From assembly GCA_003565735.1 (NCBI GenBank), contig PXBB01000110.1:1-54371 (forward strand): a DNA stretch of 54,371 nt, written 5' to 3'. Below the pieces are notes generated by a model that saw only the letters and a list, made by a program, of their open reading frames with translations, was not told the DNA's origin and did no database searches. Made by a program: the position numbers and the translations under genes. Positions 42,039 to 46,931 of the stretch are shown here, one piece after another. Origin of the DNA: Bacteroidales bacterium. GTDB lineage: Bacteria; Bacteroidota; Bacteroidia; Bacteroidales; PXBB01. How positions within the stretch are numbered: the first letter of the stretch is position 1; the number at the start of each line of letters is the position of its first letter.

Positions 42039-42539
42039 ATGAAAGACTTTAAAAACCCAACCATATTTGTAGTAGAAGATGATCCTGCGTTTTCAACTCT
42101 CATTAAAAAAGAGTTGCAAAGACATAACTTTACCAATGTTGAAGTATTTTCTACAGGAGACGCTTGTTTAAAAAAAATATCAGAGCATCCGGATATAGTA
42201 TTATTAGATTATGCCTTAGGAAAAACAGGAATGAATGGTCTTGAGGTTTTAAAAAGAATTAAAGCACAATCGCCGCAAACTCAAGTGATAATGCTTACAG
42301 CTTATGACAAACTAGAAATAGCCATAGATTCGGTTAAAAATGGTGCTTATGATTATGTTTTAAAAAGTGAAACCGCTTTTGAAAGATTAAACAATCTTAT
42401 AAAAAGAATCATCAAGCAAAATGAAATTGCAATGGCTCATAAAAAGCTGACAAAAAAAAGAAATATTGTTTTGACAATAATTGCTTTGGTTGCTGTTTTG
42501 ACTGGTCTTCTTTATTTTTTTTATATAAACTTGTTTTAA
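42039..42539 (+). CDS. Single-domain response regulator with C-terminal transmembrane helix
   Basis: A complete REC domain (residues 7-125) shows the acidic pair Asp14/Asp15 in VVEDD, phosphoacceptor Asp57 in IVLLDYALG, Thr87 in MLTAYD and Lys109 in YDYVLKSE. No DNA-binding or enzymatic output domain follows. A charged helix (IKQNEIAMAHKKLTKK) leads into a strongly hydrophobic C-terminal segment, residues 142-163 (IVLTIIALVAVLTGLLYFFY), which should anchor the protein in the inner membrane with REC in the cytosol. No sensor kinase is encoded nearby. It has its own promoter and is followed by a separate lipoprotein unit. Confidence 0.88.
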   Translation: MKDFKNPTIFVVEDDPAFSTLIKKELQRHNFTNVEVFSTGDACLKKISEHPDIVLLDYALGKTGMNGLEVLKRIKAQSPQTQVIMLTAYDKLEIAIDSVKNGAYDYVLKSETAFERLNNLIKRIIKQNEIAMAHKKLTKKRNIVLTIIALVAVLTGLLYFFYINLF

Positions 42540-42678: not shown

Positions 42679-43410
42679 ATGAAAGTTAAGTCATTACTAT
42701 GGTTATTTATAGCGGTTGTATTCTTTATGGCGGCTTGCGACAAAGAAGAAGATGAGGCGCCCCCGGTTGTGGAAGGTGATGGTACAGTAGAGTTTCGTAT
42801 GACTGTTTGGAATCAAACACCTGGCGGTTCGAAAGCTTTAGGTTTTGATGAGAGCAAGTCTGATGTTCACACCTTAAATATTATTGACGCGCGGCAATTA
42901 CTGACAAAAGTTGAGGTCACAACAGATGATATTGCAAGTGGAGTTCCATCGGGCACCATCAACTGGGTTACACTTTTCACATCTGATACAGAAAAGTTAG
43001 CTACAGGGCGAAACGTAACACTTGAAATTCCATCAGGGACATACACAGGATTCAGAGTAACACAAAGGAATTTGATGTACTGGGTTTGTATGCATGAAAA
43101 TGCCATCATAGAGTTGCCTGACAAAAATATATCTGTTATGCCTGATGAGGCTTTACTGACTAACTATTTTGGCTTAGATGGCTTATATGAAATCCAGGAT
43201 GGGGCTTTTGCGCTGGCCAATGCTAACGAAAAGCTGGGTAGTTTTAAAATAGAACCCAACAAAACAACCAGGATAACCATACGAATAAATTTAAAAACCA
43301 TTGATTGGCACGATAACGACTCATCAGGAACTTGGACTGACGGCGATCAGGTTTCCAACCGGACACTCCCGGATGGTGTCACATCAATGATGGACCTTTT
43401 AGTACAATAA
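42679..43410 (+). CDS. Lipoprotein, DUF4382-like beta-rich protein
   Basis: The 243 residues start with a lipoprotein signal (VKSLLWLFIAVVFFMAA, then Cys20) followed by an Asp/Glu-rich linker (DKEEDEAPPVVEGD). The mature domain is beta-rich with no cysteine pairs: VEFRMTVWNQTPGG, LLTKVEVTTDD, VTLEIPSGTYTGFRVTQRNL, RITIRINLKTIDWHDNDSSG. The conserved pattern of an early strand, a V-V central strand and an IPSGTYTxFR hairpin resembles DUF4382-type lipoproteins, but this is tentative. It lies 312 bases before the HPr-kinase-like gene, which has its own promoter, so a shared operon is not certain. Confidence 0.6.
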   Translation: MKVKSLLWLFIAVVFFMAACDKEEDEAPPVVEGDGTVEFRMTVWNQTPGGSKALGFDESKSDVHTLNIIDARQLLTKVEVTTDDIASGVPSGTINWVTLFTSDTEKLATGRNVTLEIPSGTYTGFRVTQRNLMYWVCMHENAIIELPDKNISVMPDEALLTNYFGLDGLYEIQDGAFALANANEKLGSFKIEPNKTTRITIRINLKTIDWHDNDSSGTWTDGDQVSNRTLPDGVTSMMDLLVQ

Positions 43411-43722
43411 TAGTTTATAGCTATTGTATTACAGTGACGTCCTACTTTTTTTAGACTTTTTGCTTCATTAAGAATTATGGGCGTTTGTGGCTTTCGAATG
43501 AAGTGAATTATTTGAAGCATCTTAATAGCCGGTTGGTATTACAATCACAACTTGATTAATATTGTCAGACAATTGTGGTTAAAGTATTACTTTCTCCATG
43601 TTTCCAGAATATCTAAACACTTATTTTTTTTAAGCCGTGTTCATTTTTTTAATTCCATAGCTAAAAATTGTATTTTTGTAAAGCAAATAATGACTTTATT
43701 TATTTTTAACAATTGATTTTTA
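43411..43722. other. Intergenic region before the HPr-kinase-like cassette
   Basis: This 312-base gap was inspected for a small precursor peptide. Only short frames of under about 20 codons occur (for example MFPEYLNTYFFKPCSFF), with no leader-like or Cys/Ser-rich core pattern. A -7 box TATTTTTG is at 43671-43678, 44 bases before the next ATG. Confidence 0.4.
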
Positions 43723-44640
43723 ATGGGTTTAAAAGATTTCTTTTTGAATATTGGAGGTTTTACTATACACTTCTATAGTGATGATAACGGTTTATTATTT
43801 CACCTTGACGATGCTTACATCTTATTTCTGGCAGAGCCGACAGAAAATCCGACAGCCCGTGTATGTGTCAGCAGGGGACGTCCTTTCGATTTATCACAAA
43901 GTGTTGTACAATTTAAAGCCAGTAATCCTGAAGCATCAAAAGGCTTAGAAAAAGAAACACTTTGGAGTATTCATAATTATAATGATAATTCCTATATAAT
44001 CAGTTCTGAACCCCAAAAAGGGATTTATCCGTTTTTATATGCTCATTTTCCAGAAGCACTTGATACATGGCGTATTTGGCTTCCTGAATCTGACACAAAC
44101 AATAATTTTGCTTCAACTGACCCTTTGGCATATCCTATGGGCCCTCTCTTAATGTACCATCTCGCCTTATTCAAAGGGAAAGTAATGATTCATGCTTCAG
44201 GTGTATGTAATGGTACAAACGGGTATTTGTTCTCGGGCTTTTCGGGCGTAGGTAAAAGCACTATGGCGCACCTTTGGCACGAAAGCGGACATCAGGTTAT
44301 TAACGACGACAGACTATGGCTTGGTATTGAAAACGACAAATGTTATATGTACAATACGCCAATGACTTATGTGGATAAACCACGCAAGTCGTTACTTACA
44401 CATGCTTTTTTAATCAAGCAAAGTCCTGAAAATTATTTAAAACAAGTAACAGGTATTGAAAAAATGATGCGTTTAATGGCCTTCTGTATTCAGCACCACT
44501 ATCATAAAAAGCATATTCAAATACTGATGAACACCATTGAAAACATAGCCGGTCGCTTGAAAATATATGAACTGGGGTTTGTGCCTGAACAAAGCATTGT
44601 AGAATTAATCAAAAATGAACAAAAAAGAAATTCCTTATAG
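43723..44640 (+). CDS. HPr kinase/phosphorylase-like P-loop protein
   Basis: The 305 residues have an N-terminal beta-rich domain (about 1-140) and a C-terminal HprK-like kinase domain. MIHASGVCNGTNGYLFSGFS precedes the P-loop GFSGVGKST (172-180), then VINDDRLWLGIE with the paired aspartates. True HPr kinase phosphorylates Ser46 of HPr. This protein lacks its usual N-terminal domain and has no HPr neighbour. Related stand-alone HprK-like proteins occur in lasso-peptide and other RiPP clusters, where some modify the precursor peptide, and similar proteins are sometimes annotated as PEP carboxykinase. The next gene starts 26 bases before its stop, so translation is coupled. Confidence 0.75.
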   Translation: MGLKDFFLNIGGFTIHFYSDDNGLLFHLDDAYILFLAEPTENPTARVCVSRGRPFDLSQSVVQFKASNPEASKGLEKETLWSIHNYNDNSYIISSEPQKGIYPFLYAHFPEALDTWRIWLPESDTNNNFASTDPLAYPMGPLLMYHLALFKGKVMIHASGVCNGTNGYLFSGFSGVGKSTMAHLWHESGHQVINDDRLWLGIENDKCYMYNTPMTYVDKPRKSLLTHAFLIKQSPENYLKQVTGIEKMMRLMAFCIQHHYHKKHIQILMNTIENIAGRLKIYELGFVPEQSIVELIKNEQKRNSL

Positions 44641-45121
44641 CGATTTACTGAATGTAGCATATGACGTTGCTATCAAAGGCAACATTATTAAGCTTAAGGC
44701 AGACGGAAACAGCATGTACCCGTATATCAGAAAGGGGAGCCTGCTTATTATAAGTCATGTTGACTTCGATAAGGTAGCGAAAGGTGATGTTGTCGTATTT
44801 AAAGGACAGGATAAATTTATTGCTCATAGACTTATAAAAGTGCAGTATGTAAATAAGCAGCGTCAACTTACTACCAAGGGAGATTCATGCAATAATGCTG
44901 ATACGGCTTTTGGCAAGGATCTTTATATAGGAAAGGTTATAGCTGTAGAAAAAAATGGGAAAACCATTGATATGACGACTTGGATGCAAAAAAAAACCGG
45001 ACTGTTTTTGGCTATTGTATCGCCCTATACACCGATAGTGTATAACAGTATCCGTTTTCTAAAAAAAATGTTTATTAAGAAAAGTTTAAAAAAAACATAT
45101 GATAACACCTCAAAAAAGTAG
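44615..45121 (+). CDS. S26/SipW-like signal peptidase (S24/S26 superfamily)
   Basis: The 168 residues carry the Ser-His type active site of SipW/ER signal peptidases: LKADGNSMYPYIRKGSLL with Ser33, DVVVFKGQDKFIAHRLIKV with His71, and LTTKGDSCNNAD with Asp90. The lysine of ordinary bacterial type I signal peptidases is absent. The usual N-terminal anchor is missing. A hydrophobic, then basic segment near the C-terminus (TGLFLAIVSPYTPIVYNSIR) may tether it to the membrane. Placement between an HPr-kinase-like gene and an ABC exporter, overlapping both, suggests it trims the exported substrate. Confidence 0.75.
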   Translation: MNKKEIPYSDLLNVAYDVAIKGNIIKLKADGNSMYPYIRKGSLLIISHVDFDKVAKGDVVVFKGQDKFIAHRLIKVQYVNKQRQLTTKGDSCNNADTAFGKDLYIGKVIAVEKNGKTIDMTTWMQKKTGLFLAIVSPYTPIVYNSIRFLKKMFIKKSLKKTYDNTSKK

Positions 45122-46931
45122 TTTTATAAAAAATTTTGGCACAGCGCTTGGTTTGGTTTACAAAACCACACCCGGATATACCATAGCCAATTTTGTGATA
45201 ACATTTATTCAGAGTATATTTCCGTTGATTATCATATATCTTATAAAAGAGCTGGTGGATGCTGTACAAATTGCTGTAATGGCAGAAGATAAAGCAAAAG
45301 CCTTTAATCGTGTTACGGCTGTTGTATTGTTGTCGGGAGGTGTTTACCTGGTCAACTCTATGGCCAATGCTTTGAGCCAGTATATAAGAGAGTATCAGTC
45401 ACAACATTTTTCGGATGCAATGTATAATAAACTTCATGTGAAAGCTTCACAACTTGATTTGTCTTTTTATGAAAACGCCCAATATCACGATATGTTTTAT
45501 AGGGCTTTACAGGAAGCTCCATACCGTCCGGTAAAAATTGTCAACAGTTTGTTTTATATAATGCAAAGTTTTCTGGCCATATGTATCCTTTCGGCTCTAT
45601 TGATATCGTTGCACTGGAGTATTGCTTTGGTGCTTATTATTGCTACTGTTCCGGTAGGGTATATACGCATGAAATATGCCCTTAATATGTACAAATGGCA
45701 AAAAGAAAATACACAACGGGAACGCAAATCTTATTATTTCAGCAGGATTCTGACCAATGAAATTTTTGCCAAAGAATTGAGACTTTTTGGTTTAAAAAAA
45801 TATTTTTCCAGGGCTTTTAAGATTACAAGAGCAAAGCTTATTAAAGAGAGGCTTCAAATAATAAAAAACAAAACATACAAAGAGTTGCCAACTCAGATTT
45901 TGGCCACGCTGGCCATTTTTTCGGCCTATGGTTTTATGGCGCATGGTGCCGTTTATGGCACCCTTAGCTTGGGTGCTTTAGTCATGTATTTCATGGCATT
46001 GCAAAAAGGAATGGGCTTTTTTAAAGAATTTCTTAACAGCTTGTCGGCTTTATATGAAGACAACCTTTATATTGAAAACCTCATGGCATTTCTAAAGCTT
46101 GAAAATAGTATGACATATAGTGGCAAAAAAGGGCGTTTTCCGGATAATTTAAAAAAAGGCATCACGCTTCGCAATGTATCTTTTAAATATCCTAACAGCC
46201 AACGCCATGCATTGAAAGAAATCAATATGCATATAAAACCACAAACCACTGTTGCTATAGTCGGCGACAATGGAGCCGGAAAAACAACATTGGTTAAGCT
46301 TTTGTGCCACCTCTATCAGGCTGATTCGGGCGAAATATTGATTGACGATACGCCCCTGAACCAGATTAATGATGAAGATATTAAAAGCCATATAAGCGTT
46401 TTGTTTCAGGATTTTGTCCTTTACCATTTAAGTGCTAAGGATAATATTATGTTTGGTCGTGTTGATAGGCCCTTAGATGCTGAACAAATAAAAGAAGCTG
46501 CCCAAAAAGCAGGCATCGACAAAACTATTGAGCACCTGCCACAGCAGTACGACACCATATTGGGGAAGCTATTTGATGGGTGCGAGGAATTGAGTATTGG
46601 TGAATGGCAAAAAATGGCTTTGGCCAGAGCTTTCTATAAAAACAGCCCTGTCATAATTCTTGACGAACCCACCAGCGCCCTCGACCCTAAAGCAGAATAT
46701 GAAGTTTTTAGAAAATTTAAAGAAATAATCCGTGATAAAACCGCCATTATTGTAAGTCATCGTTTCTCAACTGTAAAAATGGCCGACTATATTTATGTAA
46801 TGGAAAAAGAAACTATAATTGAAGAGGGTACACATGCTCAACTGATGCAATTGAATGGAAAATATGCCAGCATGTACCGTATGCAGTCAGAGGCCTATAA
46901 TTCTTTGCATAATAAGGATGACCGGCAATAA
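45099..46931 (+). CDS. ABC exporter, fused membrane and ATPase domains
   Basis: The 610-residue half-transporter has a six-helix membrane domain (about 20-320) and an ATPase domain with Walker A VGDNGAGKTTLVKLL near residue 390, Q-loop VLFQDFVLYH, signature LSIGEWQKMALARAF in place of LSGGQ, Walker B VIILDEPTSALDP and the switch histidine in IIVSHRFSTVKM. It has no C39 peptidase domain. The GEWQK-type signature is common among exporters of modified peptides in Bacteroidota, which is an indicative but not decisive resemblance. It overlaps the peptidase gene by 23 bases, completing a coupled three-gene unit. Confidence 0.88.
   Translation: MITPQKSSFIKNFGTALGLVYKTTPGYTIANFVITFIQSIFPLIIIYLIKELVDAVQIAVMAEDKAKAFNRVTAVVLLSGGVYLVNSMANALSQYIREYQSQHFSDAMYNKLHVKASQLDLSFYENAQYHDMFYRALQEAPYRPVKIVNSLFYIMQSFLAICILSALLISLHWSIALVLIIATVPVGYIRMKYALNMYKWQKENTQRERKSYYFSRILTNEIFAKELRLFGLKKYFSRAFKITRAKLIKERLQIIKNKTYKELPTQILATLAIFSAYGFMAHGAVYGTLSLGALVMYFMALQKGMGFFKEFLNSLSALYEDNLYIENLMAFLKLENSMTYSGKKGRFPDNLKKGITLRNVSFKYPNSQRHALKEINMHIKPQTTVAIVGDNGAGKTTLVKLLCHLYQADSGEILIDDTPLNQINDEDIKSHISVLFQDFVLYHLSAKDNIMFGRVDRPLDAEQIKEAAQKAGIDKTIEHLPQQYDTILGKLFDGCEELSIGEWQKMALARAFYKNSPVIILDEPTSALDPKAEYEVFRKFKEIIRDKTAIIVSHRFSTVKMADYIYVMEKETIIEEGTHAQLMQLNGKYASMYRMQSEAYNSLHNKDDRQ

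Follow-up and report, generated by a model that had tools for sequence, protein, structure and literature searches.

A Bacteroidales cassette of HprK-like kinase, signal peptidase and ABC exporter as a probable enzyme module of LPP-like RiPPs with unlinked substrates

The window, a 54,371-nucleotide contig of a Bacteroidales genome, contains three overlapping genes that we regard with good confidence as the enzyme module of a Bacteroidota branch of RiPPs resembling the linear polyphosphorylated peptides (LPP), acting in trans on substrates encoded elsewhere in the genome. LPP are RiPPs that were reported by Popov et al. (2026, Nat Commun, May 2026; PMC13381572) and that are restricted to Bacillota according to their authors. 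The first-pass annotation of the window had offered the cassette as an undescribed system. This held only in part, because the same gene set was published in 2026 as LPP in Bacillota; what stood was a Bacteroidota branch with a differing leader. The new elements are this branch, its dispersed substrates, a peptidase-exporter fusion and a linkage to type IX secretion (T9SS). A RiPP family called Bacillota-restricted in 2026 would have a diverged branch throughout Bacteroidota.

All three ORFs lie on the + strand and overlap by 26 and 23 bases, and their coordinates agreed with those first annotated. The first gene (43723..44640) was assigned to an HprK/PEPCK-fold, LppK-like kinase by profiles, homologue alignment and an AF2 model. 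The second (44615..45121), which overlaps the kinase gene by 26 bases, encodes a SipW/archaeal-type signal peptidase, a candidate LppS-like leader peptidase, and the third (45099..46931), which overlaps the peptidase gene by 23 bases, encodes an MsbA-like ABC exporter (LppD-like). The active-site motifs were intact in all three. The kinase has a beta-rich N-terminal domain (residues ~1-125) and a catalytic domain (~135-300) with His157 (44191..44193, +), the Walker A motif GFSGVGKST (44236..44262, +) and Asp195-Asp196 (44305..44310, +), which alignment to HprK placed in the catalytic Asp region. Alignment of 20 homologues showed that H157, the P-loop lysine and glycines and D195/D196 were invariant and that other P-loop positions vary; the ATP-binding residues, for which such a check had been proposed, were thus kept. 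The AF2 model, made with ten homologues as input, had a mean pLDDT of 88, with PEPCK and HprK/P as its top PDB neighbours. Family profiles matched weakly: Hpr_kinase_C gave E=0.0012 and 18.8 bits (cut-off 33.3), HprK_rel_B gave 2e-10, under its cut-off, and TIGR00679 gave 15.9 bits (cut-off 240), so that no match exceeded the curated HPr kinase/phosphorylase threshold. By these comparisons the protein is a very diverged HprK relative, in accord with the P-loop kinase of HprK fold originally proposed.

The peptidase scored 69 bits against TIGR02228 (archaeal-type signal peptidase I; cut-off 51.85), and its catalytic Ser33 (44711..44713, +) and His71 (44825..44827, +) and the Asp90 of its KGD motif (44882..44884, +) were invariant, which bore out the earlier call of a SipW-type Ser-His enzyme. 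The exporter had the full motif set, namely Walker A GDNGAGKTT (46263..46289, +), the already noted ABC signature LSIGEWQK (46590..46613, +) and DEPTSALD, and MsbA models were its closest profiles. In seven genomes the two proteins were joined in a single protein, with the peptidase N-terminal and its catalytic residues kept, an arrangement that speaks for coupled cutting and export. The fused forms resemble peptidase-containing ABC exporters of the C39 type (PCAT) in having an N-terminal peptidase on a peptide exporter, but the domain is a Ser-His-Asp signal peptidase instead of a C39 Cys protease, and in the window the peptidase and exporter are separate proteins. A literature search turned up no paper on a signal-peptidase/exporter fusion.

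We searched 393 genomes of the order with a kinase profile and took E<=1e-33 as a strong match, which was found in 30 genomes. For strong as well as weaker matches, the surrounding loci were retrieved and their genes labelled by profiles. Among the 30 strong-kinase loci, the window included, the peptidase was near or fused in 27, a RiPP recognition element (RRE) present in 25 and the exporter in 21, counted within fetched stretches, several of which end at contig ends. The three genes are therefore co-located in other genomes, the point on which the first-pass annotation had made its proposal depend. The usual order was an RRE (a PqqD protein of 90-110 aa), a short ORF, the kinase, the peptidase and the exporter, often with a PF14907 nucleotidyltransferase. 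Thus the cassette recurs across Bacteroidales, mostly together with a PqqD-type RRE and a precursor of 41-83 aa, and on these comparisons is a real, conserved system. The nearest relative (L017, 46% kinase identity) has the bare three-gene cassette, as in the window; in L117 the RRE is present, overlapped by a longer reverse frame. The nucleotidyltransferase adjoins the kinase in many relatives and is absent from the window.

The lipoprotein gene upstream of the cassette (42679-43410), which had been suggested as a partner, showed weak DUF4382 and Mfa1-fimbria-like similarity. A homologue was found in 0 of 15 related loci, and we rejected this candidate because it is not conserved beside the cassette. 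Further upstream, the frame at 42039-42539 encodes a receiver domain of the response-regulator type and, C-terminal to it, a hydrophobic segment, IVLTIIALVAVLTGLLYFFYI; its product is apparently a receiver tethered to the membrane and lacking an output domain.

The window contains no lasso cyclase, no RRE and no precursor. The missing components were found on other contigs of the same genome. The lack of a PqqD-type protein, stated in the original annotation, applies to the window and not to the genome, which encodes a single PqqD protein on contig C134; in most relatives the discrete RRE lies within the cluster. In relatives, the short ORFs situated between the RRE and the kinase, small frames of the kind suggested as worth seeking, have a common leader, and a precursor profile was built from them. 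This profile identified two precursors in the genome, of 55 and 61 aa, on contigs C29 (C29:29065-29178, E=1e-13) and C86 (C86:1644-1748, E=1e-8), with the sequences MKTKRNYSKPIIKKQTIDNDISLIMLSEGGPPSGPFDFGYNSDDLTDNKNTPYKV and MKATRKKNYNKPIISKLAIDNHISYVLMTPPPGGDENTIPGGPFGSTKKQPPKDKQKSFFG; the guess that the substrate is encoded elsewhere proved right. The leader motif was absent from the short ORFs of region 43410-43723 and from those that follow the RRE gene on C134, the precursor was not encoded in plasmid records, and the precursors had no matching family in Pfam or NCBIfam. Because the genome is a draft (84% complete, 1.5% contamination), the assignment of C29, C86 and C134 to it depends on binning; the same split was seen in relatives, and in sister genomes G001 and G002 the RRE and a precursor are adjacent, away from the enzyme genes and behind a protein with a T9SS sorting domain.

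The precursors consist of a leader, KKxYxKP-x7-D-xxISLxMM[S/T], followed by a Pro-rich core. Among 54 catalogued precursors, Y1 was present in 53 and P4 and D12 in all; these three residues were used as anchors, and the count at position 21, which was S or T in 54/54 (34 S, 20 T), was unforced. Every precursor had a Pro within the first ten core residues, eight had cores without Ser, and Cys occurred in one core only. The S/T at position 21 could equally be a phospho-acceptor or the residue before the cut, as Thr is in LPP. A second conserved element besides the leader was P[FY] in the last 14 residues of 43/54 precursors, often as [NDS]PF[KEG]. In one genome an intact precursor has a second copy beside it that contains two in-frame TAG codons (G219:C3:476223-476339) and is probably a decaying duplicate.

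Precursors were found in 26/30 kinase-positive and 5/363 kinase-negative genomes of the order (Fisher 1e-31). Kinase-positive genomes had supplied the seeds of the profile, which makes this co-occurrence circular in part; with the seed genomes left out, the values were 2/6 and 4/362 (p=0.003). A search for the kinase in the five precursor-only genomes detected none, and four kinase-positive genomes had no detectable precursor. In a separate phylum-wide draw of 396 genomes, precursors occurred only in G000, G414 and G504, and kinases of this clade (E<1e-70) occurred only in the same three, while two weaker kinases (E ~1e-30 and ~1e-26) were in genomes without precursors. G504 is a single 4.29-Mb contig on which the genes of a precursor (1.98 Mb) and of the kinase (4.18 Mb) lie ~2 Mb apart, indicating that the separation of substrate and enzymes is not a binning artefact. 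Since the substrates are scattered and served in trans by one cassette, ordinary gene-cluster mining misses them.

The LPP genes of Paenibacillus alginolyticus (LppA, K, B, S, D and N) include a SipW-like peptidase, a discrete RRE, an HprK-like kinase, an NTP transferase and an MsbA-like pump. The kinase puts up to four phosphates on a core Ser, the leader is cut off by the peptidase with the assistance of the RRE, Thr being the residue before the cut, and the roles of kinase, RRE and peptidase were proven experimentally in Bacillota (PMC13381572). The Bacteroidota branch has these parts (HprK-like kinase, discrete PqqD-type RRE, SipW-like leader peptidase, MsbA-like exporter, often a nucleotidyltransferase), lacks a cyclase as LPP do, has a Tyr-type YxxP leader and presumably works like LPP. 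It differs in phylum, in precursors that are often unlinked and number several per genome, in the peptidase-exporter fusion of some members, and in its linkage to T9SS cargo, as opposed to capsule loci for LPP. Past YxxP, its leader reads ID-xx-ISLxMM[S/T] where LPP have HQxIxFETxxS. The LPP leader motif YxxPxVLxHQxIxFETxxS was not matched by the 54 peptides, which agree with it only in Y, P and the hydrophobic position 6; we therefore did not file the branch as LPP proper.

By analogy with LPP, the C134 RRE would bind the YxxP leader of the C29 and C86 precursors, the HprK-like kinase would phosphorylate a Ser or Thr of the core or of its junction with the leader, and the SipW-like peptidase would remove the leader from the RRE-presented substrate, with a cut that probably falls close to or at the invariant S/T of ISLxMM[S/T]. 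Gene context agrees with the maturation and export of a ribosomal peptide foreseen by the first-pass annotation, with an HprK-like kinase in RiPP-type machinery, and the suggested phosphorylation is predicted from the LPP model system. The anatomy of the genes suggests that the ABC exporter would then move the Pro-rich core to the periplasm and that the product may act in the envelope, probably with T9SS-displayed proteins; genes for such proteins stand before the precursor or RRE genes in most relatives.

To quantify this linkage, we considered the gene before each precursor, skipping the RRE, and took TIGR04183 as the type A sorting domain. The domain was carried by 37/50 preceding genes as against 3/35 following genes (Fisher p=9e-10). 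Of eight later-found precursors from other lineages, G414/G504 contributed three and L149, L150, L154, L155 and L156 one each. Seven of the eight follow a T9SS protein, all over the curated cut-off. As a background, the genome itself has 87 type A domains, ~4% of its genes by estimate, and in T9SS-rich relatives the share of such genes may be about a tenth. The cargo domains among those examined were fn3, BNR-associated, beta-helix, YDG or none, and this variety points to a link with the secretion route and not with one protein family. In the genome under study the linkage was seen for the RRE only: the gene of the C134 RRE comes after that of a 1333-aa protein bearing a T9SS sorting domain, and neither precursor follows a T9SS gene. 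Full-length PorU was not found in this 84%-complete draft. The C29 precursor has no same-strand gene directly before it, and the C86 precursor stands directly behind an alkaline phosphatase gene (L111 21-1484), a suggestive neighbour for a predicted phosphopeptide gene. The literature search on T9SS together with RiPPs gave nothing relevant, and we found no report of such a link. Placement behind T9SS cargo is a testable clue to the role of the predicted phosphopeptide, namely surface action with secreted proteins.

The same pathway might instead yield a released antimicrobial or signalling peptide, the T9SS linkage being a mere genomic habit, for example of shared promoters behind surface-protein genes. 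We give this perhaps one chance in a few: the coupling of peptidase and exporter is like that of bacteriocin exporters, and several precursors per genome with variable cores would suit it, but the neighbourhoods showed no immunity gene that recurs, and the linkage is found again in a distant class and also for cargo unrelated in architecture. At the other extreme, the modified peptide, once cleaved from its leader and exported, could be a working part of type IX secretion, joined to the neighbouring type A cargo or anchoring it at the surface; in cells that lack the A-LPS linker, for instance, the PorU sortase might use it as an acceptor. We consider this a long shot. If true, a RiPP would serve as a protein-display anchor. 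Somewhat less probable again is that the small proteins of 41-83 aa have a structural or chaperone role for T9SS cargo and are no RiPP precursors, the kinase cassette having another target. Their genes do stand directly behind cargo genes, yet YxxP is a known binding motif of discrete RREs (PMC13381572), many relatives have the peptide gene between those of the RRE and the kinase, and peptide presence follows the kinase.

Apart from the LPP-like pathway that we favor, the enzymes might be the tailoring set of a phosphorylated lasso peptide of the paeninodin type, with its cyclase lost or elsewhere. HprK-like kinases, PqqD proteins and NTP transferases tailor such peptides too, and the best named NCBIfam relative of the RRE was lasso_PqqD_Bac, under cut-off. 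However, no Asn_synthase domain (lasso cyclase) was found in the 84%-complete genome by a search whose control matched 11/14 known genomes, a SipW-like Ser peptidase replaces the lasso B2 protease, and the cores look unlike a macrolactam-forming family. We rejected this very improbable reading because no cyclase was found in the 84%-complete draft. That the first gene is a carbon-regulation HPr kinase/phosphorylase in an accidental operon can practically be dismissed: the fold of its C-terminal half, the P-loop and the Asp-Asp region fit, but the kinase has very low sequence similarity to HprK/P, scores far under the HprK cut-offs, has an extra N-terminal domain and stands in a conserved RiPP context. 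The gene neighbourhoods already disfavoured this reading.

Beyond the LPP-like branch to which the window is assigned, a second, more distant Bacteroidales kinase clade (L025, L026, L029 and L059-L068) was accompanied by peptidase, RRE, NTP transferase and exporter in varied orders, and L025 has one candidate precursor, MKKLYTSPEIEVVEVIEYGFAASEPLGRSKVSQSFEEEEF. A scan of genome contigs gave matches with the kinase profile and none with the single kinase sequence as query. Kinase, RRE and peptidase also occurred together on contigs titled as Acidobacteria-type (Solibacteraceae, Acidiferrales, Terriglobales), Desulfobacula and Elusimicrobiales (L158-L162), indicating that related systems extend past Bacteroidota. 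Two records titled as alphaproteobacterial and archaeal MAGs (L149 and L153) have Bacteroidota-like cassettes, the former with T9SS cargo and a precursor, and are probably mis-binned contigs. In one family (L047, L050, L052 and L056) the cluster lies directly behind tsaD, a shared insertion place.
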